Shown: in pieces, positions 1 to 44,995 of the stretch
How positions within the stretch are numbered: the stretch's first letter is position 1
Layout of the letters: each line of letters begins with the position of its first letter
DNA from: Candidatus Altimarinota bacterium
GTDB taxonomy: Bacteria > Patescibacteriota > Gracilibacteria > BD1-5 > UBA6164
NCBI GenBank assembly: GCA_030683605.1
Contig: JAUXPL010000040.1
Coordinates: 1-47,118, forward strand
DNA length: 47,118 bases
Direction: 5' to 3'
Notes under the pieces: generated by a model
Database searches by the model: none
Told to the model about the DNA's origin: nothing
What the model saw: the letters and a program-made list of their open reading frames with translations, nothing else
Translations under genes and position numbers: made by a program

Positions 1-1212
1 ATGCCAGATAATGCAGAATTGAATTGAACACAATGAACATCAACATGGTCATACAATACAACACCATGAGTATGTAGATATGATTGTCAAGACTGATTTC
101 ATACAGAGAATTGATGAGTAAGTTGTGTAAGTGATACAAGATCATGTGTAATTGCAAATGGAACATGACAAGAAACATGGAATGGAAGTGCTTGGTGAGC
201 ATGTACAGTGACAAGTTGTAATGTAAACTATACACAAAGTGGAAATGTGTGTAATGCAAATACTCAAAGTGTAGCATGTGGAGGTTCTCAACCATCTAAT
301 TCTACTGCAACAGCTGGTACAACTTATACACAAACATGGAATGGAAGTGGATGGACACCAAGTACAAATTGGTGAGAGAGTCAGGCGACCTGTGATTTTA
401 ATTGTAATACAAATTTTTATTGGAATGGAAGTAGTTGTCAAAGTATTTATTCTGCATGTACATGATCAAATAATTGACAGATATTTACATCAGTTACAAT
501 ATATCCATGAGTATCTACTTCATGATTAGCACAACCAGTTCACCCATGATGTAATACTGCTGATAAATTACTATGTACTTGAAATCAAACATGAATAATT
601 ATATCCTCTTGTAATGTATGAGCAAGTGTATCATGATTATGAACATCTAGTTACTGATATTATTTTCAATGGTGAAGAAATAAATGATTTCCATATTTAG
701 ATACTTCAATGAATGAATCTACTATTAGTTGAACAACTTGATTAAATGCTAGTACAGATACTTATGGTTTTGTAGAACAATATAATTGGTCTAGTACAAG
801 TACAACTGACAACTGGTGACATACTACAAACACAGATTTAGCTAAACAGTGACCATGTGCTAGTTGATATCATGTATGAAATCAAACAGAACGGACATCT
901 ATACATACAATATGATGATGGTGAAGTAATTCAACTGCAATGAAAAATGATTTAGTAATGCCATTTTGATGATACCGTGATATATATGATGCAGATGTAT
1001 ATGAATCAGATGCGAATCCTTTGGTTGATTGAATGTGAACTATAAAAACAAGTTGATATTATTGGACTGCTACACATTTCAGTTCACAATTATGAAGAGT
1101 TAATTTTTTGTGACGTACTGATGATTCTGGTACTATTAATACATGGACTTATATAGCTACAACTATGTCTAAAGGATATTGATACAATGTTCGTTGTATA
1201 AAAAATAATTAA
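1..1212 (+). CDS. Cys-rich surface protein with C-terminal FISUMP domain (5' end probably cut off)
   Basis: Reading frame 1 is open from the window edge to TAA with TGA as Gly, about 403 codons. An ATG sits at base 1 but the protein starts in mid-module, so I treat it as 5'-partial. The first half has repeated Cys-rich modules (TWNGSAWGAC, SYNTTPGVC, FYWNGSSC), also found in the next gene. The last 150 residues look like a Fibrobacter major paralogous (FISUMP) domain: CASGYHV, MPFGGYRD, a GYYWTAT block and the ending GYGYNVRCIKN. Such proteins are usually secreted surface proteins of unknown ligand. The stop codon lies inside a 50-bp palindrome. The domain call is good; the role is inferred. 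Confidence 0.75.
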
Positions 1213-1259
1213 TATAAAAAAAATCTAAAACGAATTCGTTTTAGATTTTTTTTATATTA
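1210..1259. terminator. 50-bp perfect palindrome, likely bidirectional terminator
   Basis: The inverted repeat is perfect without a loop and centred on GAATTC. A-runs and T-runs flank the GC-containing core CTAAAACGAATTCG, so both strands can form a hairpin followed by U's. It contains the stop codon of the upstream gene. A second copy with the same core is at 4216-4273. Confidence 0.75.
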
Positions 1260-1376: not shown

Positions 1377-4214
1377 ATGAATAAACAAAAAACAAAACCA
1401 TCTCAATTCTCCCTTCCAGCTACGAGTCCCGTCTTTAGCGGGAAAGACTGGACACGTATCAGGGGGGGATGTAGACCAGCATTCACACTGGTAGAGCTAA
1501 TCGTTGTAATTACAATACTAGCAATCCTATGAACAATAGCTTTTATTAGTTTGCAATGATATAGTAAACAAGCTAGAGATAGTACAAGAATAAGCGATTT
1601 ATCAAAAATGAAAACATCACTAGAATTGTTTCAAATTGAAACATGAAAATACCCACTACCAACAAATTGAATAAATATTACATATAGTTGAGCAACAGTA
1701 TGGACTCAGTGAACTTTTTGAGATACAGTTATAGCTAATATAGTGAAGCTTGATGTAATACCTAGAGATATATTAACGGAAAAAGAATATACATATTCAA
1801 TAACATCTAGCAAAAATCAATATGAATTATGATGAATAATTGAAGGGGATGAAGTTAGCTACAGACCACCCCTAACCCCTCCTTATCAAGGCGGGGAACA
1901 AGCAGCAGTAGCATCATCGCCCCTGACAAGGGGAGAATTGAGAGGTGTTTTTGCCTGAACAATAGAAGCACAAGCATATACCACAGGTAATTATAATTGA
2001 CAAATGACTAAAAGTCTTAGTTGAGAATTATGTAATGTATTAGCATTACCTACAATAATAACTAATGATACTAATATAACTGATTTACAACAAATAGTAA
2101 CAGAACAAAAATTGGTATATAGATGATTCAAAAACTTACCAGCATCATTCAAAGGTAGCAAATTCAATGAAGCAGCTTGATTTGATTTTCAACCAAATAC
2201 TCTTTTAGCTTACACAGATACTTCTAGTTGTACTCCTCTAACTGATAATTCTAGCTATACAGCAAGAGTCAATCTACTGAAATGATTAAAAGATGCATAT
2301 ATTTGAACAATATTACAAAATGAGTGAGAATTAGCAAATATAGTAAATCTAGAAATAGATACAAATAGCCCAAGTAATGAAGTAATAAATTATGCAGGAA
2401 ATTATGTAAATAATGTACTTAAATGAAAAGTAAGTACATCATTAGGATGAACAACTACTACAACATATGCAAACTGTGATGCAAAAACTCAAAGCTGATA
2501 TACAATACCTCAAATAAATCATAGTCAATCAGAGAATATAACAAAATCTTGAAGTATAAGTAATTGAACACAAAACTATGGAGCTCAAGCTAATTGTATT
2601 GATTGAACATTGAATATAATAGATGAAGCAATAAATATAGTGTGTAATTGATGATATGTAGAACAATCTGGAGCTTGTGTAGCAGATCAATGTTTGAATA
2701 CAGTACCTTTAAATGCACACTCAACAGCAACTAGTCAAAATGTAAATGTAGCATGGATACACAATTCAACGACTCCATGAGTATGTACATTTGCATGTGA
2801 TACAAATTATTCTTGGAATGGTAGTTCTTGTACAACATCATGTAATCATTGAGAAAATGTTGTTGAATGACAATGTATAGATCCTGATTGGTCAAAAGTA
2901 TCAATGCTTATGAGAATGAACTGAACAAATAATAGTACAAACTTTTTAGATAGTAAATGAGTAAATGTTATAACAAGATCTTGAGATACAAAAATAAGTA
3001 CTGAAAATAGTATGTATGACTGAGCAAGTTGATTTTTTGACTGAAATAATGATTTTATAACTTATACTTATAATGCTAGTTTATATGATTTGTCTACTTC
3101 TGATTTTACTTTAGAATGATGGATAAATCCTAGTGCTTATGCATGATGAAGTTTATACTGAACAATATTGAGTAAAAGAACGTGATGAGCTGATTTTGAT
3201 TATACATTATTTGTAGCCTGATCAACTTGAAAAAGTGTTTGTTTTAAATACTGAACTACAAGTAATTGAGCAATTAATCTATGTAGTTCAAATAATTCAA
3301 TTTTGTTAAATACATGGTATCATGTAGCTGTAACTAGAGAGTGAAGTAGCTTAAAATTATTTATTGACTGAAATTTGGTTAATACTAATACATTAACTGA
3401 AAATATAAGAAATAGAACAACTAATGTTGAAATGTGAAAATCATTATCATATACAGATTCTTATTTTCACTGATATATAGATGAATTCAGAATTACTAAG
3501 TGAAAAGCAAGATATACATCAAGTTTTACTAAACCAACAAAAAAATTCGCTATATGAGAATATGGTAATAAAACTTTACTAATGCATTTTGATTGAGCTA
3601 ATAATAGTACTTCATATATAGATGAATATTGACATAATTTTACTAATTTCTGAAATGCAAAAATAAGTTCTAATTATAGTAAATTTTGATGAACAAGTTT
3701 GTATACAAATTACACGAACTGATATATACATTTAACTCATAATGATTTATTAATCTGAAATCAACCTTTTACAATGGAATATTGGTTTTTACAAACGCAT
3801 TTACCATCAGCTTGATATTGATATGCGATTCAAACATATTGAAATTGATCTGATTGAACTTGATGATTTGCCACACAAACATTTCAGTGGAATACTTGAT
3901 CAAAAGGTCATTTAATAAGAAATGCATATTGAACTATATTAAGAAACTATGATTATAATATATGACAATGGTATCATTTTGCAATTACTAGAGAAACTGT
4001 TTGATGAAATATTAGATTTTATGTAGATTGAGTTTCATTATGATACTTACCAAGTTCTTGAAATTTTTGAACAACGAATTATCTAAAGTTATGACACTAT
4101 ACATGATCATGGAATCAAGTATGAAACATTTATATTGATGAATTAAGATTTATAAAATGAGAATCAATATATAATTGAAATTTTACTCCTCCAACTCAAG
4201 CATTTACTAAATAA
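1377..4214 (+). CDS. Type IV pilin-like protein with two LamG/concanavalin-like domains
   Basis: 945 residues with TGA as Gly. After an unusually long leader comes PAFTLVELIVVITILAIL, a class III prepilin helix with Ala instead of Gly before the conserved Phe. Residues 40-400 match the paralogue at 42542-44995. A Cys-rich linker follows (STTPGVCTFACD, SWNGSSC), then two LamG-type domains at about 577-721 and 796-935 (FTLEGWINPS, WYHVAVTRE, LFIDGNLV; FTMEYWF, WYHFAITRE, FYVDGVS). The likely role is a surface filament subunit or adhesin that displays a carbohydrate-binding-type fold; ligand unknown. GC-rich repeats are inserted in frame at residues 9-32 (inside the leader) and 161-193. The start ATG is the only one upstream of the prepilin motif. 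Confidence 0.85.
1401..1473 (+). repeat. GC-rich in-frame insert in the prepilin leader
   Basis: This stretch is much richer in GC than its surroundings, contains CCCGTCTTTAGCGGG, and encodes about 24 extra residues between the first nine residues and the prepilin motif. The paralogue at 44995 has a leader of only seven residues before AFTLVEL. It probably belongs to the repeat group scattered through the window, although no second identical copy is seen. Confidence 0.55.
1860..1957 (+). repeat. In-frame GC-rich repeat insert (PPLTPPYQGGE / SPLTRGELRGV type)
   Basis: Two GC-rich units lie side by side: ACCCCTAACCCCTCC...GGCGGGG and CCCCTGACAAGGGGAG. They are translated as PPLTPPYQGGEQ and SPLTRGELRGV. 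Close relatives of these peptides occur in HtpG, alpha-2-macroglobulin, PBP1C and the second LamG pilin. The paralogue carries different copies of the family at the equivalent position, just before the conserved AGT(I/T)EA. Confidence 0.8.
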
Positions 4215-4215
4215 T

Positions 4216-4273
4216 GATAATATAAACAAAAAATCTAAAACGAATTCGTTTTAGATTTTTTGTTTATATTATC
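4216..4273. terminator. 58-bp perfect palindrome, bidirectional terminator between convergent genes
   Basis: Perfect inverted repeat with the same CTAAAACGAATTCGTTTTAG core as at 1210-1259. It separates the pilin gene (stop 4212-4214) from the convergent slipin gene, whose stop codon (4264-4266) lies within the stem. A/T runs on both sides fit intrinsic termination on both strands. Confidence 0.8.
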
Positions 4274-27368: not shown

Positions 27369-29453
27369 CTCATCCAAATACATCTGAAAATCCTTCAATC
27401 TATCTATCTCATCATTATTCAGTTTCTCATACAAATCTTGACTTCTAAACTTCCCATCTAGTATTCTAGAATAGTATTTTTTCTCTGTTTTTTTATATAC
27501 CAATTTTTTTCTAAAACATTGCAAATCCAAACAGTATTCTGCTTGTTCTATTCATTTTGGTGGCTGTATTTTTCTGTCTTTTATATATCATAATTCTATA
27601 GCTTTTTCTATTGTATTGTGCCATATATATCATGCTCCAGTTATTCATGTAACTCCTATCATTGAACTATTATCATTGTTCCCTACCCATATTCACATCA
27701 CGAAATCTGGATGATATGATACTATTACATTATCACGAAAATCGCTACTAGTACCAGTTTTAACTGCTTGTGGAATAGAAGTGTTCATGATAGAATTCAC
27801 TCAAAAACTCAAATCCCTATTATCAGAATCACTCAATATATCATAAAGCAAAAACTTCGCTTGTTCAGTATTCAAGTCATTATCTACTTGCTCTTGTTCC
27901 CCCGCCTTACTAAGGAGGGGGTTAAGAGGTGGTCACTTGGGATTATATGATGATCAATTACTATTAGGCAACAATCTACTATAACTTAGTACTAAATCTG
28001 ATAATTTAATAGATGGATTTCATAATACGAGTGAGTATCAATAATAATCTGCTGATTCTGGTAGATTGAATCAATAATATTTATAAAAATCAAATACTTT
28101 GTTTAATCATAATTCGCTTGCTAGTCTGACACTAGCATTATTCAGACTATTTCAAAGTGCTTTTTTGAGTCTGATTAATCAATATTCATTTAATGAATAA
28201 TTATTAGAAATATATGTTTTTCATTCTTGAAAACTATTTAGTTTATTATTCAAATCCAATAATAAATCATCTGGATTTGCTCAATTTTGTAATGCCATTA
28301 GATATAGAAATGGCTTCATAGTACTACCAGGTTGTCTCAGGGATTGTATAACATCTACTTGTCAATCTATTTCTTTGCTATAAAAATCACGACTTGATTG
28401 ATAGATAAGCACTTGTTTTGTTTTAGGATTTATTGCAAAAATAGCTCAATTTGTAACATTTTTTCATTTCAAACTTGCAAGTGTTTTATTCAATGTTTCT
28501 TGTGCATATTCTTGTAGTTTTGAGTCAATAGAGACAGTCACAGCACCTGACTCATCATAATCAACCTCACCCCTAGCCCCTCTCCTTAGAGGAGAGGGGA
28601 ATATTAATAATGTAGCCTCCTTCTCCTCTAAGGAGAAGGAATTTATGCCCGTATGGAGGTATCCTGTGGACAAGGATGAGGTTGCTAGATTTGTAACTAT
28701 TGGGAATTTATCTATATTTTCTTTTTTATTTAGTTTATAAATAGTTCTAGTGAAACTATATCAGAGTTTATTTTGAGTTTTTGTGAAATATTGTCTGAAT
28801 GATTTATCTTCTAATGTTTCTACTCATGGTTTATGAATTAGCGAGACTAGTAGCGTGATTTCCTCTTCACTTAAATCATTTATATCAGATTTTCAAAAAT
28901 ATACTTTCATAGCTGATCATACTCAGTAAAGATTGTTTCAAAAATATACATCATTTAGATAATTGGATAATACTATTTGTTTATTATCTAATCCCTCCCC
29001 CTCATACTTCGGGTACTCCCTTTGGAAAAGGGAGAAATATACAGCCAAAAATGCTTCTCTGGATTTTTGTAAATATGTTCTATTATTAGCTTTGAAATAC
29101 TTATTTTTTATATATTGTTCTGTAATAGTACTTCATCCAGCTACTACTTTTCAATACAATATATTTGATTTAATTGCTCACAATTTAGAAAAAGCATCTA
29201 TTCAAAAATGATTGTAATAATTCTTGTCTTCTATTTTTAATAAGTCTGATACAAATCTACTATTGAAATCTATTTTTATAGCTTTTTTGTAACCATATTT
29301 ATTTGCTTTGTCTGTAATTATTATTCAATTTCTATCTTTTATATATATTCTTGCAGGTTCTTTTGAAGAATCATAAGTAAGTAATGGAAAAAAGCAGTAA
29401 GCTAAAAAACTTACTGCTAAAAAACTTGTTATATAAATAATATTTTTTTTCAT
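27366..29453 (-). CDS. pbpC: Bifunctional penicillin-binding protein 1C
   Basis: 695 residues. N-terminal membrane anchor (residues 5-24). Glycosyltransferase 51 domain: IEDKNYYNHFGID and AGGSTITEQYIKN. Transpeptidase domain: GSTMKPF (catalytic Ser), NYSLNEYG, and AVKTGTSSDFRD followed by GIWVGNND. It polymerises and cross-links peptidoglycan; the PBP1C type is often encoded beside alpha-2-macroglobulin, as here. The usual large C-terminal extension is reduced. Three GC-rich repeats lie in frame at about residues 139-152, 257-299 and 504-518. Conserved motifs remain intact, so the protein is probably functional. Confidence 0.92.
27897..27945 (-). repeat. In-frame GC-rich insert in pbpC (third)
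   Basis: Translated PPLNPLLSKAGEQEQ. The DNA is close to the insert in the pilin gene at 1866-1903 (CCACC-CTAACCCC-TCCTTA--AAGGCGGGG-AACAA), but small indels shift the middle codons; the frame is restored at the end. Confidence 0.75.
28555..28680 (-). repeat. In-frame GC-rich insert in pbpC (second, longest)
   Basis: Contains a palindrome (CCTCTCCTTAGAGGAGAGGGG), a second CTCCTCTAAGGAGAAGG unit and CCTTGTCCACAGGAT. It is translated through, adding about 40 residues that include FPSPLRRGARGEVD, nearly the same as PSSPLRRGAVGEVG in the LamG pilin at 44468-44585. Confidence 0.8.
28990..29036 (-). repeat. In-frame GC-rich insert in pbpC (first)
   Basis: Translated FSLFQREYPKYEGEGLDN, inside the glycosyltransferase domain. 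The DNA resembles the intergenic unit at 11850-11880 (CCCCCT..GGGTACTcCCTTgaaAAGGGA). Confidence 0.7.
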
Positions 29454-33000: not shown

Positions 33001-35922
33001 TAATAATAAATCTGTTATTGGTCTCTCACATACTTCCACTTTGTTATTTACTTTTACTAGTCTTTCTGATTTCTTATCTTTGTTAAAATCTTCTATTACT
33101 TTTGCTATATCTATATTTTTATTTATATCTATTTTTCAGTACTCAAATACATATTCTCAAACTTCTTTTAGATTATAATTCAATCTAAGTTTTCAATCTA
33201 GTGTTGGTTTAAGATTCTTATCATTTACTAACATTACTTTTTCTATTTTTTCTGAAACACTTGTAACTGGTCTACTATATCATTTTACATCATTTACTTT
33301 TAATGTTTTGTAATTTTTCTTTTTTATAACTAATACATATTTATCATTATATCAAGTAGTCCATTTTCATTGAGTCAATCATCATTTGATATCAAGTGAA
33401 TTACCCGCCAAGATAAATTTATTCTCAGCACTAAATTCTACACTTGAAGTATTATCATACATTTTATAATCACTTGGTAATTTTGCAATTATTGAATTAG
33501 CACCAGATATAGTATCTCAAACTGAATCAGTAACCGTTACTTCAGCTATATATTTATAATCACTATAATTTGAACTAAAATCAACATTTACTTCAAAACT
33601 TCAAATTCCATTTCAATCTAATACTCATTTTCATTCACTATAAAACTCTTTTTCTGGTTCCCAATAACATCCATAATAACAATCATTGAAATATGACTCA
33701 TCGTAATAATATTGCTTATAAATTTTGTAATTAAAATTAGCCTTTGCCAAACTAGCTCAATTATAATATTTTGATATTACTTTTCATTTTATTTTAAATT
33801 TTCAACTATAAATAGTTTCTATCCAATAATCATGATTTTTTACTTCTTCTTTTTCAATAGTTACCAATCATTCATTTAATCACTCTGTACTAAGTACTAC
33901 TTCATTTTTGAATTTTGGATTTTTAAATACTTCTACATTATACCCTCACCATCAAATAATATTTCAATCTACATATATTCAAATACTATAAAATCATAGT
34001 GTTGATGCTATTGGAATATTTAGACTATCAGAAATACTACCATATTCTGATACTTTGACTTCTTTGTTTACTATTTCTTTTCACAATCAATCAGTAACTT
34101 TAAGATTTGCTATTTTTCCATTTGGTATTGATAAATCTTTTGAATTTCTAAGTACTCATTTAATATTTACTGTTTCACCTGGTAAATAAAGCATTCTATC
34201 AGTATAAATATGAGAATAATACTCTGGTTCTGCAATACTGTATTTATCTAATTGAATTGCATCTTGATCCAAGTTTTTATCTTGTTCCCAATATCAAGTA
34301 GGCACGGTGTATCAAAAATTCCATGGAGCAATTCATGAATTCCATGTAGAGTTCACATAAGATAGATTATTAGCTCAAGATGATATTACAAAAAATGTTT
34401 TATACAATCATTCCCAATCATATTCCCAATCTTCTGAGTAAGTTCTCATAAATGCATCTGATACCTTTTGTTTAAGATCTACTTTTAATATTCATCAAGT
34501 ATTCGTAGTTCATAATTCTACTTGTTCACCAAATACATTTTTATCAAGTACAGTCAAATAATTAATATCAAAATCTCATTTATCATTATTCCATACTTTT
34601 TGTTGTTCTTTGAAATCATTTACTAATACAGTTAGCTTTTGATTAGCAAGTGGTTTTCATCCAAAGTCATTTACAAAGAAAAACGCTTCTCAGTTCTTGC
34701 TGACTTTCATTATAATATGAGAATCAATGATTCAGAAAAATGTAGGATAACTTAATTTTCAATTAAATTGTCTATCTGCTTCTTCTGAAAATTGTACAAA
34801 ATACAATCAAGTTTTTACATTTTCTCAGATTATATCTTTTAGAGTAAAGTCTTTTTTTGTTAATATTACTTGTTTTTCCCCTCCTTGATTTGAGGGAGGT
34901 GTTAGGGGTGAGTTAAGAGCTAAATCTTTTTCACTACACTCAAAATTTTTCAGCTTGTCTATCTCTTTTAAGAAAAAGTCTTTCACATCCATTTTTTCAG
35001 CTTTTTTCCTATATACTTCTATTTTTGCATATGTTTCAGTTGGTATTCTACATGCTTTTATCTTAGTTTTAGTTTTTGCAGAGTTGTATTGTAATACTTG
35101 AAATTTAGGAAGTTTGTTATTTTGATATAGAGATACTTTATCAAGTAGTTTTATTCAAAAATATTTGTTATCTGGTGTTGTAAATACAAATTTATCATTC
35201 CTAGTTTTTTCTCATAAACTTGTATCATAATTCTTTAATGAAATAGTATATTTAGTCAATGGAACAAGTGGTAGTCTAAGAATAGCTTTATTTGGTGTTA
35301 GATAAATATCATCAATACTGAAATCTACTTTTGGTTCAATAACTAGCAAATTTTTTAATCTATTTTTTACTTCTATTCTATTTTTTAAATATTCTTCACT
35401 ATTTTCATCTCAAACTTCAGTGAAAAATTCTAGTGAGAAATCCATTTTTACTTCTGATTTGAAATCATTTTCTACATCAAACAATGCTCAAGTAGAAAAT
35501 TTTACTTTTAGATATTTAGAAGTACATAATTCTCTTTTTTTATTAAAGTCATCTAGAATAATATAATCTTTAGAAAAAAATATTTTATTTTCCTTGATTA
35601 GATTTTTACAATTATCTTCATTTAATTCTATGTATGAAATATTATATAATTCATCACATTTTTTTTTCATAGATTCAAACTTGTTTTCATTGAAAAATTC
35701 ATTATCCATAAATCAGGTTTTATCAAAACCTAAAATAATACTACAATTATCTCTATTTATATTTGCATCATCTAATACTATATTTATTTCTGATACCAAT
35801 TTTTCAGCTCTATAATCTAAATATGATTTGACTCAAAAAAATCCTAATACAAAAACAATGATTGAAAAAAGTATATAAATAATCCACATTAAATGCTTTT
35901 TTTTCAAGTTGAAGTTTTTCAT
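30067..35922 (-). CDS. Bacterial alpha-2-macroglobulin with thioester motif
   Basis: 1951 residues. A membrane anchor near the N-terminus (residues 11-33) is followed by macroglobulin-like domains (DRMLYLPGETVNIKGVLR in the MG region), the bait/MG7 region (RLGEKARVLVRLPFSKGK), ELTVMVVDDSLISL, and the thioester motif YPYGCIEQTTSATLP with Cys1472 and Gln1475. A helical toroid follows (GGFAYWEG, LLAYTYGL) and a C-terminal receptor-like domain. The family traps attacking proteases by covalent linkage and guards the periplasmic or outer surface; bacterial copies are typically linked to pbpC. Two GC-rich inserts lie in frame at about residues 334-349 and 1100-1123. No frameshift was found. Confidence 0.93.
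32555..32622 (-). repeat. In-frame repeat insert in the alpha-2-macroglobulin gene
   Basis: GGATACCCACAAGGGGCATC and GTAGGGGCTTCCCTTGTGGG form an inverted pair of the unit seen at 21824-21890. It is translated as RLPQGKPLQSDEK and CRDAPCGYPEIKVP between macroglobulin-like domains. Confidence 0.75.
34877..34921 (-). repeat. In-frame repeat insert, near-identical to that in htpG
   Basis: 45 bp that differ at only three positions from 37924-37968 in htpG, in the same reading frame. Both encode [13 protein letters not shown]. Confidence 0.88.
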
Positions 35923-37282: not shown

Positions 37283-39242
37283 AACCAATATATTCACTTG
37301 CAAATTTATTTGTCAGGTTTACAAATTCTGCTGGATTTTCTAATTCTCATCATTCTAATAATATTGCTTGCATATATGCATAGTTTATTATATCTGATAA
37401 TTTTGAAGATTTTACATCATTATCAAACTCACTTTTCATAGATTCTACTAGTTTATTTTTACTATTTAGTTCTAATATTCTTTTTTGAGTTGGAACATCT
37501 TGTCACATAGCTTTCATCATTTTTTCTAGTTGTGGATCTATTCCATTCTTTGGAGTTTTTAATGCTCATAGTGAATTTCATAAATTATCATTCAATACTA
37601 CTTCTTCTATTTTTTCTCATCAAATAGTATTTTTTATTAGTTCGAATAATCATTTCATATTTTTTTGCTTTTCTTCTTTTTCTTTCTTTTGTTCTTCTGT
37701 TTTTTCTTCTAATTCTATATCATTTGAAGTAATAGATACCAATTTTGCATCTTTATATTCTGTAAATCATTGTACTAAAAATGAATCAATAGGATCAGTA
37801 AAAACTAATACATCTATATTTTTTTCTCTAAATTGAGCTAAATATGGACTAGCTAAAGCTTCTGATTCTGACTTAGCAATTATATAATATATAGTTTTAT
37901 TAGATTTATTTTCTTCCTTATCTTCCCCTCCTTGATTTGAGGGAGGGGTTAGGGGGGAGTTAGGAGCTTTTTCTAAATATTCATCCAATGTAATCAATTC
38001 ACCAGTATTTATTCATTTAAATAATGAAACTCCTGCTATATCAGTTTTCAAATCATATTCATAATGAATTCATTCTTTTACTACTTTTCCATAATTTGAC
38101 CAAAATTTCACATAATCTTCTCTATTATTTTTAAGTGTATTTAATAATTCACTAATTACTTTTTTAGTTAATCATTTTTTTATTTTATCTAGAGTAGAAT
38201 TATCTTGCAACATTTCTCTAGAAATATTTAGTGGTAAATCATTAGTTTCAATTACTCCTGCAACAAATCTAAGCCATATAGGCATTAATTCTTTTGCATT
38301 TTCTAGAATAAGAACATTTTGCACATACAATTTTGGACCATATTCTAGATTTGGATCTGATAAGTTTTTATACATATTTACTTCTCTAGGAGCAAATAGT
38401 ATAGATTTATAACTAACCATTCATTCTACATTATTATGTATCGTAAATAATGGATCATTCCAATCAAAACTTAATGATTGATAAAAAGCCTTGTATTCTT
38501 CTGGAGTTATGTCACTTTTACTTTTTTTCCATATTGGTTTAGTTTCATTTATTTGTTCAAATGGCATTACTTTTTCTTCTTTTTGCTTTTCTTCTTCTGT
38601 TCTACTATCATATTCTCTCATCATTATTGGAACTCATACAAAGTTTGAGTATTTTTTAATTAATTCTTTCAATTTCCAATCATGTACTAAATCTTTGTTT
38701 GCTTCATTAATATAAAGTACTACTCTTGTTCATCTATATAAATTTTCTGCAGAAAATTCTTCTACTGTATAATCATTTTTTCAATCACTAATCCATTTAT
38801 AAGCCTTAGAATCTAATGGAGATTTACTAAATACTTCTACCTTATCTGCAACCATAAAACTTGAGTAAAATCATACTCAAAATTGACCAATTAAATTGTG
38901 ATCTGAATCTTCTTTAGCTTTTTGTAATTTTTCTACAAATTCTTTTGTACCAGATTTAGCAATAGTTCATAAATGAGAAATTAATTCTTCTTTAATCATT
39001 CAAATACCATTATCACTAATCGTAATAATATTATTACTCTCATCTGATTCTACTACTATTTTGAAATCAACATCATCACCCAAAAAATTAGAATCTGTTA
39101 ATGCTTTTAATCTTGCTTTATCTATTGCATCAGCTGCATTAGAAATTAATTCTCTCAAAAATATTTCTTTATTAGAATATATACTATGAGTTAACAACTC
39201 TAGTATTCTACCAGTTTCTGCCTCAAAATTGTGTTTTGACAT
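37281..39242 (-). CDS. htpG: Hsp90-family chaperone HtpG
   Basis: 653 residues. N-terminal ATPase domain: [24 protein letters not shown] with its TGA-Gly, HLGTIAKSGT, and [16 protein letters not shown]. Middle domain: [63 protein letters not shown]-terminal dimerisation region ends [16 protein letters not shown]. It helps client proteins fold using ATP. A GC-rich repeat at residues 425-439 adds [16 protein letters not shown] to the middle domain, between a strand ending LDEYLEK and a charged stretch. The family length without the insert is about 620-630. Confidence 0.95.
37924..37968 (-). repeat. In-frame repeat insert in htpG
   Basis: 45-bp palindrome-containing unit (CCCCTCCTTGATTTGAGGGAGGGG), almost identical to the one at 34877-34921 in the alpha-2-macroglobulin gene, in the same frame. 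Confidence 0.88.
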
Positions 39243-42541: not shown

Positions 42542-44995
42542 TTAATAAGGAGATTGTGGTGGAGTAAAATTTGATGAATATCTAGCTATTCATCTAGTAA
42601 ATCTAACCTCATCTATATAAACAACTCTATTTTGTAACCATGATCAATCATATTTTCATAAAACTATAGTATTATTATTTAAGAAACTTCAACTATAAGG
42701 TAGATATCACGTACTTACTCAATTAAGAAACATACGTACACCTCAATTTGGAGTATCTCTTTGTACTACTATATGATGCCATTGAGAAATATTAACATTA
42801 TTGAATCATACTATTTGAGTAGCTCAGTTTCTTACATACATTGAATTTTGAGGAGTATTTCTATAAAAATAATAAACAGCAAATCAATTATTTCACTCTG
42901 CACCATTTCAGAAATTTAATATTGGTATTCCATATCAAGAAGATGATAATGAATTAACATAAACCCAAAATTCAAATGTAAACGGTTGACTTCATATTAA
43001 ATAATCTTGGTGTGTAGAAGTAATATATCATAAAGTACCATTAGTATATAAACTACCTCATCAAAATTTACTTTGTAAATTAGTATTTTTAGCTGTTCAA
43101 AAATTAGAAAAATTATGTCAATACTCATCTACATATATAGTAGTTCAATTTAATCAATCAAAATGCATTAACAAGGCTTCATTTGATCATGTAGCAAATG
43201 AATTAACAGGTACTGGAAAATTTGAATTATATCTAGATATTCATTTTGTAAAACGTAATTCATCAACATATCAATGATAATCTTGAGTTTGTGAACTTCA
43301 TGAAATTCACATATATATTTGTAGATTTCTATTTCTAATATTTTCAGTAATTGAATTAGTATTTACTAAATTTCAATCAATAAACATTCTAATATTACTT
43401 CATTGCCTACTAACAGCTACATGATACCATGTATTTAATTGGATTGTATTACTAGGAGAACTCATATAAACTATTGGTATACTTGTAGTTCCATATGCAA
43501 AAACTATGCTTTTATTATTTCAATTTACATATAATGAATAATCAAAATCAGTTCAATCCACTTTTTTACTCAAAATACTTCAATAAATAGTCCTTCAAGT
43601 ATAAGAACTAACATTTATCCATCACTCTATAGTAAAATCTTGTGTAGATAAATCATAAAAACTATTGTTATATTGGAAATACATACTATCTGTAGTTCAT
43701 GAAAAAGACATACTACTTGAACCAAATTTACTTTTAGCAGTACTTATTACTCATAAATCTCATCATGTTTGTAAAGAATTTGATCATTTTTCATCTTTAA
43801 GAACTTTACTATTATTAACTCACTCATACTTTAATAATATTCCTACTTTATCCCAATTAGGATCAATACATACTCATCATTGTACTACTTCTCAATAATT
43901 ACATTGTACTTGATTTAAATTTTGTGTATTTGTAACATTATTATTTGAAACATTATTATTAATAATAATGTTTCATCATAAATTATTGTTTACAAAATTT
44001 CATGCATAATTTATTACATCATTACTTGGTGTACTTATATTTATATCTAATAATCATAGATCTTTTATCTTTCATTTATCTACAAGTATAGTTCAACTAT
44101 AAGAATCCTGCAATCATTTTAATAATTCTAGCCTTGCAGAATAATCATTGTTATTTATTAATTCACTACAACTTCATGTATCACTATAAGCTATTATTTT
44201 TGCTGGTGCAAAATCAAATCATCAATTTTGTTTGAATTTTGATCATCTAAAAGTACTTGGTAGATTTTTATATCAATTATATACAAATCTTTTTTCTGTA
44301 ATGATTTGTTGTAAATCAGTTATACTAGTATCATTTGTTATTATTGTAGGCAAACTAAGAACATTACAAATTGTTCAAGATAATGACTTAGTCATTAATC
44401 AATTATAATTTCATGTTACATATGCTATTGCTTCTGTTGTTCATGCAGAAACCCTTCTCAATTCTCATAAACCAACCTCACCCACAGCCCCTCTCCTTAA
44501 AGGAGAGGAGGGATTATATGATATTTCTTTTTTATTTACTCCTACTATTCCCTCTCCTCTAAGGAGAGGGCTAGGGTGAGGTTTTTCACTATTCATTGAT
44601 ATTTCATCTCATTCCAATATTCAAGATACTTCATATTCATTTTTATTCATAGTAATTGAATAAGTATATTCTTTATTAGTAGAAGGATCTAACGGTATTT
44701 TATTTAGTTTAGATAAATTAGCATGAACAGTTTCTCAAAATGAACCTTGATTCCAAACTGTAGATCAACTATATGTAATATCAATACCATCTGTTGGTAT
44801 GGGATATTTTCATGAATCTAATTGATATAATTCAAGTGAAGTTTTCATAATAGATATATCACTTATTCTAATATTATCTCTAGCATCCCTACTATATCAA
44901 CCTAGAGTTATAAATGCTATTGTTCATAAAATAGCTAATATACTAATTACAACTATTAACTCAACTAGTGTGAATGCATAATAATTTTTTTTCAT
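42542..44995 (-). CDS. Type IV pilin-like protein with two LamG-type domains (paralogue of the gene at 1377)
   Basis: 817 residues. Short leader and prepilin helix MKKNYYAFTLVELIVVISI. The region up to about 400 parallels the gene at 1377 (GKYPIPT, ITYSGSTVWNQGSFG, TKSLSGTICNVLSLPTIITND, NLPSTFRGSKF). Two LamG-type domains follow (FTIEGWINVSS, WYHVAVSRQG, MFIDGNLVNT; FTFEFWVYVNS, WHHIVVQRD, MFLNGVST). The Cys-rich linker of the first copy is mostly missing. It is probably another surface filament or adhesin subunit. A GC-rich double insert lies in frame at residues 137-176, at the same place as in the paralogue. Confidence 0.87.
44468..44585 (-). repeat. In-frame double repeat insert in the LamG pilin
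   Basis: Two inverted GC-rich units (CCTCACCC..GCCCCTCTCCTTAAAGGAGAGG and CCTCTCCTCTAAGGAGAGGGC..GGGTGAGG) flank a 30-bp AT-rich centre. Translated as PHPSPLLRGEG and PSSPLRRGAVGEVG. Confidence 0.82.

Follow-up and report, generated by a model that had tools for sequence, protein, structure and literature searches.

How did different repeat sequences come to lie at the same site of two paralogous pilin genes? The window, i.e., the whole stretch of 47,118 nucleotides that was analyzed, is contig C46 of the draft genome G000 (1.54-Mb, 96.6% complete, 24% G+C), which is readable only with genetic code 25 (TGA coding for glycine). An earlier note on this DNA had left two possibilities, namely repeated insertion at one attractive site, or replacement or recombination of an ancestral insert. 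Each half of this alternative stood and its either/or did not, since the hinges compared below carry signs of both.

The gene of pilin A is located at 1377..4214 on the plus strand and encodes 945 amino acids, that of pilin B at 42542..44995 on the minus strand and encodes 817 amino acids (both translated with code 25 and compared with Pfam). Pilin A consists of a leader helix with the N_methyl motif, a pilin module, a hinge, a conserved second module, and two Laminin_G_3 domains. In pilin B, Pfam places N_methyl at residues 3–28 and T2SSG at residues 36–124; the hinge begins at residue 125, and two Laminin_G_3 domains are present. The N-terminal methylation motif (N_methyl) and Laminin_G_3 lie above the Pfam cut-off in both pilins, and the T2SSG match in P0002 scores 20.9, slightly below the cut-off of 21. 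With a methylation motif, a pilin module, and an extra module, both genes can be assigned by their predicted domains to the LamG modular type IV pilins. The two proteins share 56% identity across the full alignment, and the frame is open throughout both. An AlphaFold2 model of pilin B, calculated from a two-row alignment, was discarded (pLDDT 36), and an Rfam search of the window gave no match.

In both pilins the insert is bounded by the segment ...YSIT..KN.YE..GI.EGDE(V/I)S on the left and by AGT(I/T)EA on the right. The hinge insert of pilin A is YRPPLTPPYQGGEQAAVASSPLTRGELRGVF, that of pilin B is MNSEKPHPSPLLRGEGIVGVNKKEISYNPSSPLRRGAVGEVGLGELRRVS. Both form islands of about 50% G+C in a genome of 24% G+C and consist of dispersed palindromic repeats, which have many copies outside of the pilins. 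The insert of pilin A contains two hinge modules on the plus strand. Module M3, AGCTACAGACCACCCCTAACCCCTCCTTATCAAGGCGGGGA (SYRPPLTPPYQGG), is located at 1857..1897, has dispersed relatives, and corresponds to the arms of the DUF559 units L280 and L281. Module M2, GTAGCATCATCGCCCCTGACAAGGGGAGAATTGAGAGGTGTTT (ASSPLTRGELRGVF), is located at 1908..1950 and corresponds to the arms of the DUF559 unit L232.

The insert of pilin B, on the minus strand, is composite. It opens with the initial 15 nt of module M1 (ATGAATAGTGAAAAA, 44582..44596), a remnant which was recognized by alignment with L107, L110, L077, L003, and L065. To the right of this remnant lies a two-palindrome element, CCTCACCCTAGCCCTCTCC...GGGCTGTGGGTGAGG (PHPSPLLRGEG...SPLRRGAVGEV), at 44476..44581. 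It is 106 nt long, its palindromes are inverted, and its dispersed copies are found in coding sequences as well as in intergenic regions. The left arm of this element is 89% identical to an arm of the DUF559 unit L231. On its right side, alignment identified what is left of the right end of an M2 copy (GAGAATTGAGAAGGGTTTC, 44448..44466), so that the right ends of the two window inserts are homologous (GAGAATTGAGAGGTGTTT, 1933-1950, vs. GAGAATTGAGAAGGGTTTC, 44466-44448 on the minus strand). The hinge of pilin B looks like one of the M1+M2 type, as in L107, L110, and L077, with another element nested in its middle or replacing it. The statement of the earlier note that different repeats sit at the equivalent site of both pilins thus holds for the hinge and for the middle parts of the inserts, but not for the M2 right end, which is common to both.

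Hinges from four congeneric genomes (G000, G001, G002, and G004), 68 altogether, were compared. A search with the pilin half gave 39 matches in G000 and up to 60 in the congeneric genomes (45–60 in some). The count for the draft G000 is a lower bound, since many contigs break in or beside pilin N-terminal regions; such contig ends were seen for C35, C40, C5, C37, C38, C41, C49, and C56. A repeat module, single or combined, was found in 37 of the 68 hinges, the other 31 being short or without a label. Short native hinges are found in many paralogues. The modules are M1 (NNEQGIMNN), M2 (SSPLTRGELRGV), M3 (RPPLTPPYQGG), M4 (PSQPSLKLGK), M5/M6 (PHPNPLPKGEG...SLPLGETEGG), and M7 (PLSQPFPPREKG). Every one of them has dispersed copies, both coding and intergenic, and the element of the C35 hinge has copies in two other genes with 92–93% identity. 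Two inverted palindromes with a short spacer make up the hinge elements of C35, C7, and C46b and their dispersed copies. Module M1 (AATGAATAATGAACAATGAATAATGAATAATG, e.g., in L065 and L107) is rich in A+T and repeated between genes, and neither a GC-rich palindrome nor a DUF559 counterpart was found for it.

Inserts at random positions of other paralogues, which the earlier note had named as the sign of a coincidence, were sought and none was found. In the pilins of the own genome, repeat-derived islands are confined to the hinge and the prepilin leader, and a few of these genes have further GC-richer stretches of native appearance. The prepilin leader is a second recurrent landing site. Its length is 20–55 residues in many paralogues, with elements such as NPSPFRHFPGKGKN, NPSQFSPCQGRGRT, and KVPLIKGDVRRTGG. 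Pilin A carries a leader insert at 1398..1478 on the plus strand, before the residues FTLVE, which was recognized as a GC island and by alignment with the leaders of paralogues, whereas the leader of pilin B has only 7 residues. The prepilin leader is cleaved prior to assembly, and for this reason a foreign peptide would be least harmful in the hinge and in the leader.

A target sequence at the boundaries, raised as a possibility by the earlier note, was not found in the aligned paralogues of the four congeneric genomes. The left insertion points vary by family: M3 begins after an isoleucine codon, M4 after serine, M5/M6 after asparagine, and the C46b element three codons further. Neither a common motif nor a target-site duplication was seen in the alignment of the paralogue hinges. 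Since the left points differ by several codons and no motif or duplication is in common, a sequence-specific target is unsupported. A permissive loop of 8–13 residues accounts for the common site better than sequence-specific attraction.

The same kind of repeat is widespread outside of the pilins. In 680 kb of the genome, 155 perfect GC-rich hairpins were counted vs. 6 in a local shuffle, 59 being in frame within genes and 96 outside, with 88% of the DNA being coding. The motif GTAG occurs within 14 nt of 26 of the 155 hairpins and in 8 of 155 control windows. Hosts of in-frame hairpins include RecG, UvrB, a RecQ-type helicase, Tex, and a penicillin-binding protein. The latter is encoded in the window, and its gene carries in frame an element of the pilin-hinge class with two palindromes (amino acids 278 and 292; 28533..28689, minus strand), which sits between the transglycosylase and the transpeptidase domains. 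GC-rich repeats of the M3 class which form no perfect hairpin were found in frame in the Hsp90 (HtpG) gene (37913..37978, minus strand) and in an alpha-2-macroglobulin-like gene (34869..34920, minus strand). Furthermore, near-identical perfect long palindromes (AAAATCTAAAACGAATTCGTTTTAGATTTT) are located at window positions 1210-1259 and 4216-4273, each directly after one of two adjacent genes at the start of the window. These are probably terminators.

Single-copy genes were informative with regard to the origin of the inserts. In recG, one codon gap is empty in G002 and G004, holds a palindromic element in G000, and is occupied in G001 by a DUF559 domain with one palindromic half on either side. 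In uvrB, one gap is empty in G001 and G002, and it contains an M3-type palindrome in G004 and a different element in G000. The gene of a RecQ-type helicase (L134:11753-14608, on contig C4 of G000) contains an in-frame DUF559 domain between palindromic arms, and this unit is absent from RecQ in all 8 of the 8 relatives searched. In-frame palindromic repeats which are missing from orthologues were found in recG, uvrB, and recQ, where the sites are empty in sister species, and in the pilins. As exchange between paralogues is impossible in single-copy genes, the captures in recG and uvrB are regarded as independent, and the reuse of one gap in each of the two genes favours a filter by permissive loops over a target sequence. 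The gaps of recG, uvrB, and the pilins have no evident sequence in common. The elements possess inverted arms resembling those of miniature elements (MITE-like); no target-site duplication, as is typical for MITEs of DDE transposons, was seen at the hinge, recG, and uvrB insertions. At another loop of recG, in G010 (L220), an insert of about 436 nt was observed, an acetyltransferase-like stretch (judged by eye) which is unrelated and has no obvious palindromes.

Repeated insertion at one site, the first half of the earlier alternative, is therefore confirmed by at least six unrelated families in the hinge and is also seen in single-copy recG and uvrB. For the second half, replacement or recombination, the copies within the hinges were compared with those elsewhere. 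Identity between paralogues is 0.97 in the elements (92% for M2) and about 0.76/0.69 in the 150-nt flanks, and for M3, M4, and M2 the copies in hinges hardly differ between paralogues or between species. The 11 distinct hinge copies of M4 have base changes in common which are absent from 8 of 8 dispersed copies. The diagnostic sequence CATCG of M2 is present in 5/5 hinge copies vs. 0/5 copies outside of hinges (CATCT or CCTCT there), and the hinge form of M3 is reproduced by no dispersed copy. Because these diagnostic bases are in common and absent from the dispersed genome copies, most hinge copies appear to have passed between paralogues.

The coupling between module type and gene tree is only weak (28 changes, compared with a mean of 34.9 after shuffling). 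The sister genes C35 and C53 are about 97% identical upstream, yet the hinge of C35 holds M5/M6 and that of C53 holds M3; the latter hinge, together with its right flank, resembles L091, a paralogue from another species. This swap, the hinge-specific diagnostic bases, and the nested insert of pilin B bear out the replacement or recombination of inserts. L067, which equals L069 minus the hairpin, was considered as an empty site and rejected, as it keeps the left tail and is a decayed M4 copy. Ordinary long-tract gene conversion is unsupported, since identity drops sharply at the element ends; short exchange, template switching, or insertion by a hinge-resident subfamily may account for the likeness of the paralogues. 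As read from these alignments, the permissive hinge captures elements repeatedly, and paralogues also exchange them.

A sequence target in the pilin hinge, which attracts elements independent of selection, is an improbable explanation of these data. It would fit the several families at one hinge, the sharp identity edges, and the reuse of one gap in recG and in uvrB, but the left points lie several codons apart without a motif or duplication, the gaps of the three kinds of genes are unlike in sequence, and the hinge copies are a non-random sample of the dispersed copies. Very improbable is a single ancestral hinge insert which all paralogues inherited and which then diversified through recombination and mutation without repeated capture. 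The near-identical hinge copies of M3, M4, and M2 with their common diagnostic bases, as well as the common right end of the window inserts, agree with it; however, at least six families, which have their own dispersed copies and their own DUF559 units, are not derivable from one insert, many paralogues have short native hinges, and the independent captures in single-copy recG and uvrB largely refute it. The inserts could also be selected as a diversifying cassette which tunes length or flexibility between the pilin and adhesin modules, and the large family (45–60 hits in some genomes), the near uncoupling of module type from backbone, and the better conservation of element copies relative to their flanks are in line with this. 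Its probability is nevertheless low, as the same elements occur in RecG, UvrB, RecQ, and the penicillin-binding protein, the changes within the hinge copies of M4 mostly alter the amino acid, and decayed copies such as L067 exist.

The enzyme which moves such repeats elsewhere is RAYT (TnpA_REP), which mobilizes REP/REPIN elements, i.e., short dispersed palindromes that are often inverted pairs (PMC3116915, PMC8266576, PMC3733652). No match to a Y1_Tnp (PF01797)/RAYT/TnpA_REP gene was obtained in G000 (96.6% complete), G002, or G004, and RAYT was rejected as the driver in G000 for lack of a Y1 transposase gene; 13 of 39 relatives have Y1 transposases above the cut-off. Genes of the DUF559 family (PF04480, Vsr-like, PD-(D/E)XK) are present, flanked by inverted palindromic arms which match the hinge families. 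The arms of the unit on C4 (L231) match M5/M6 with 92% over 38 nt, those on C17 (L276) match M4 with 88% over 32 nt, and those on C15 (L277) match the leader family with 93% over 29 nt. The arms of the units on C10 of G004 (L280) match M3 with 84% over 37 nt, and those of the RecG unit of G001 (L238) match M7 with 97% over 35 nt. The unit on C23 (L232) has M2-like arms with identity over 16 nt only. These sequence matches associate the repeats with DUF559 endonuclease units: M3, M4, M5/M6, M7, and the leader families are matched, M2 over 16 nt only.

This bracketing is not confined to single loci. Perfect hairpins on both sides were found at 9 of 21 readable DUF559 loci vs. 0 of 87 control windows. 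Across the order, the inverted-repeat score exceeds the 99% level of random positions at 28 of 41 DUF559 loci, and 13 of the 41 are without arms above this null. On plasmids from Cyanobacteria, Deinococcota, and Alphaproteobacteria, inverted palindromes flank 10 of 10 DUF559 genes on either side, as judged against random positions in the same record (p<=0.03, nine at 1/301). Four additional plasmid records, which were scored without the random-position test, gave two positives and two negatives, so that in total 2 of 14 plasmid loci are without arms. DUF559 relatives are rare in phages (3 records). Across 23 genomes of the order, a small sample taken without phylogenetic correction, palindrome density correlates with the number of DUF559 genes (rho 0.54, p 0.008, after masking of the regions around DUF559) and shows no correlation with the number of Y1 genes.

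The outlier of this correlation is G002 with 15 DUF559 hits and few palindromes. Near-identical DUF559 copies of this genome (L265-L268, L270, L272, L273) lie within an element with the terminal repeats GGCATAATCTAAATTTTGGTGGAT, several copies of which show 8-bp target duplications, e.g., GAGAATTC and CATATTAG. This element has both terminal repeats and duplications as in MITEs, unlike the palindromic elements. Since most copies lie inside this unrelated element, DUF559 may be cargo in G002, and its multiple copies were rejected as a proof of self-mobility. The riding of DUF559 in the terminal-repeat element and the Y1 transposases of the 13 relatives are compatible with DUF559 being a mere passenger, the palindromic elements, which would at times carry or flank its gene, being moved by another enzyme or by a lost RAYT acting in trans. 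This is rather unlikely, as each palindrome family tested has a cognate DUF559 unit, bracketed DUF559 genes are found again in Cyanobacteria, Deinococcota, and Alphaproteobacteria, palindrome density tracks the number of DUF559 and not of Y1 genes, and G000, G002, and G004 have no Y1 gene.

The preferred reading, which is considered fairly probable, is that palindromic elements were captured in tolerant loops, exchanged among the pilin paralogues, and derived from and spread by DUF559 units. The inserts would be non-autonomous palindromic mobile elements, REP/REPIN-like in shape, which land at many genomic places and persist within genes only if they are in frame and in a dispensable loop. In the pilins, this loop would be the hinge that links the pilin module with the one in front of the LamG domains, and the cleaved leader would be a second one. 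A captured hinge insert may then be passed among paralogues by duplication and very short exchange or template switching. The short elements may have arisen from DUF559 units by internal deletion or as solo arms. By nicking or cutting at the palindromes, the endonuclease of these units would drive the spread of the short elements in place of RAYT/TnpA_REP, which is absent from G000.

As a class of protein-coding palindromes, the repeats can be likened to the Rickettsia palindromic elements (RPE), several families of which are inserted into mutually unrelated protein genes without disrupting the frame (Ogata et al. 2000, 2002, cited in PMC3733652, PMC10969869); here as well, several palindromic families lie in frame in unrelated genes and leave the frame open. 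In contrast, the elements described here occur in Gracilibacteria using code 25, mostly comprise one or two short REP-like palindromes, reuse one hinge of a multigene family and the prepilin leader, and match DUF559 arms. With REP/REPIN they have in common the short dispersed palindromes, often inverted pairs, the intragenic copies, and the repair-gene hosts. Intragenic REPs are known in DNA repair genes, and two Xanthomonas species have different REPs at approximately the same recB site (PMC3733652). However, RAYT/Y1 is missing here, and the gene between the matching inverted arms is DUF559. The VsrA protein of Caulobacter is a chromosomal, solitary DUF559 (PF04480) of Vsr-like type with a proposed role in mismatch repair (PMC12907096); it has the same Pfam domain of a small PD-(D/E)XK-type endonuclease, whereas DUF559 is here bracketed by inverted palindromes and lies in frame inside recG and recQ. 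In PilB and PilC of Streptococcus sanguinis, as described in the accessible part of PMC8179133, a pilin module is joined to an adhesion module by a short loop, and a modular pilin of Gracilibacteria is listed there. The loop-joined modules are similar to those of the window pilins, and the concanavalin A-like module of PilC is akin to their LamG domains; the loop as a recurrent landing place of palindromic elements is seen here and not in that part of the source.

RPEs and intragenic REPs are thus known, and new is the pairing of palindromic repeats with DUF559 endonuclease units, including those of other bacterial phyla, which was not found in the literature searched. In open-licence literature the terms co-occur in two papers only, in unrelated senses, and the literature searched contained no such repeats in candidate phyla. 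A broader proposal, which is tentative and falls a little short of an even chance, is that DUF559 endonucleases mobilize a phylum-spanning class of palindromic elements as the counterpart of RAYT/REPIN. The full unit would be arm-DUF559-arm, solo arms and internally deleted pairs would form the common GC-rich palindromes of many bacteria, and entry into genes would be in frame, including whole endonuclease domains in RecG and RecQ. The driving of palindrome movement by DUF559 is inferred from the matching arms and their recurrence.

For the biology of these bacteria this means that palindromic elements accumulate where proteins tolerate them and thereby mark permissive loops, such as the pilin-adhesin hinge, the prepilin leader, and the loops of RecG and UvrB. 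Essential repair proteins gain extra peptides from such repeats and, in some cases, an entire nuclease domain. Most annotations call a DUF559 protein just an endonuclease or a protein of unknown function, and a defined DNA partner would supply a role for such proteins. In genomes without RAYT, DUF559 is a candidate enzyme for palindromic repeats, which predicts a cognate DUF559 protein for each palindrome family.
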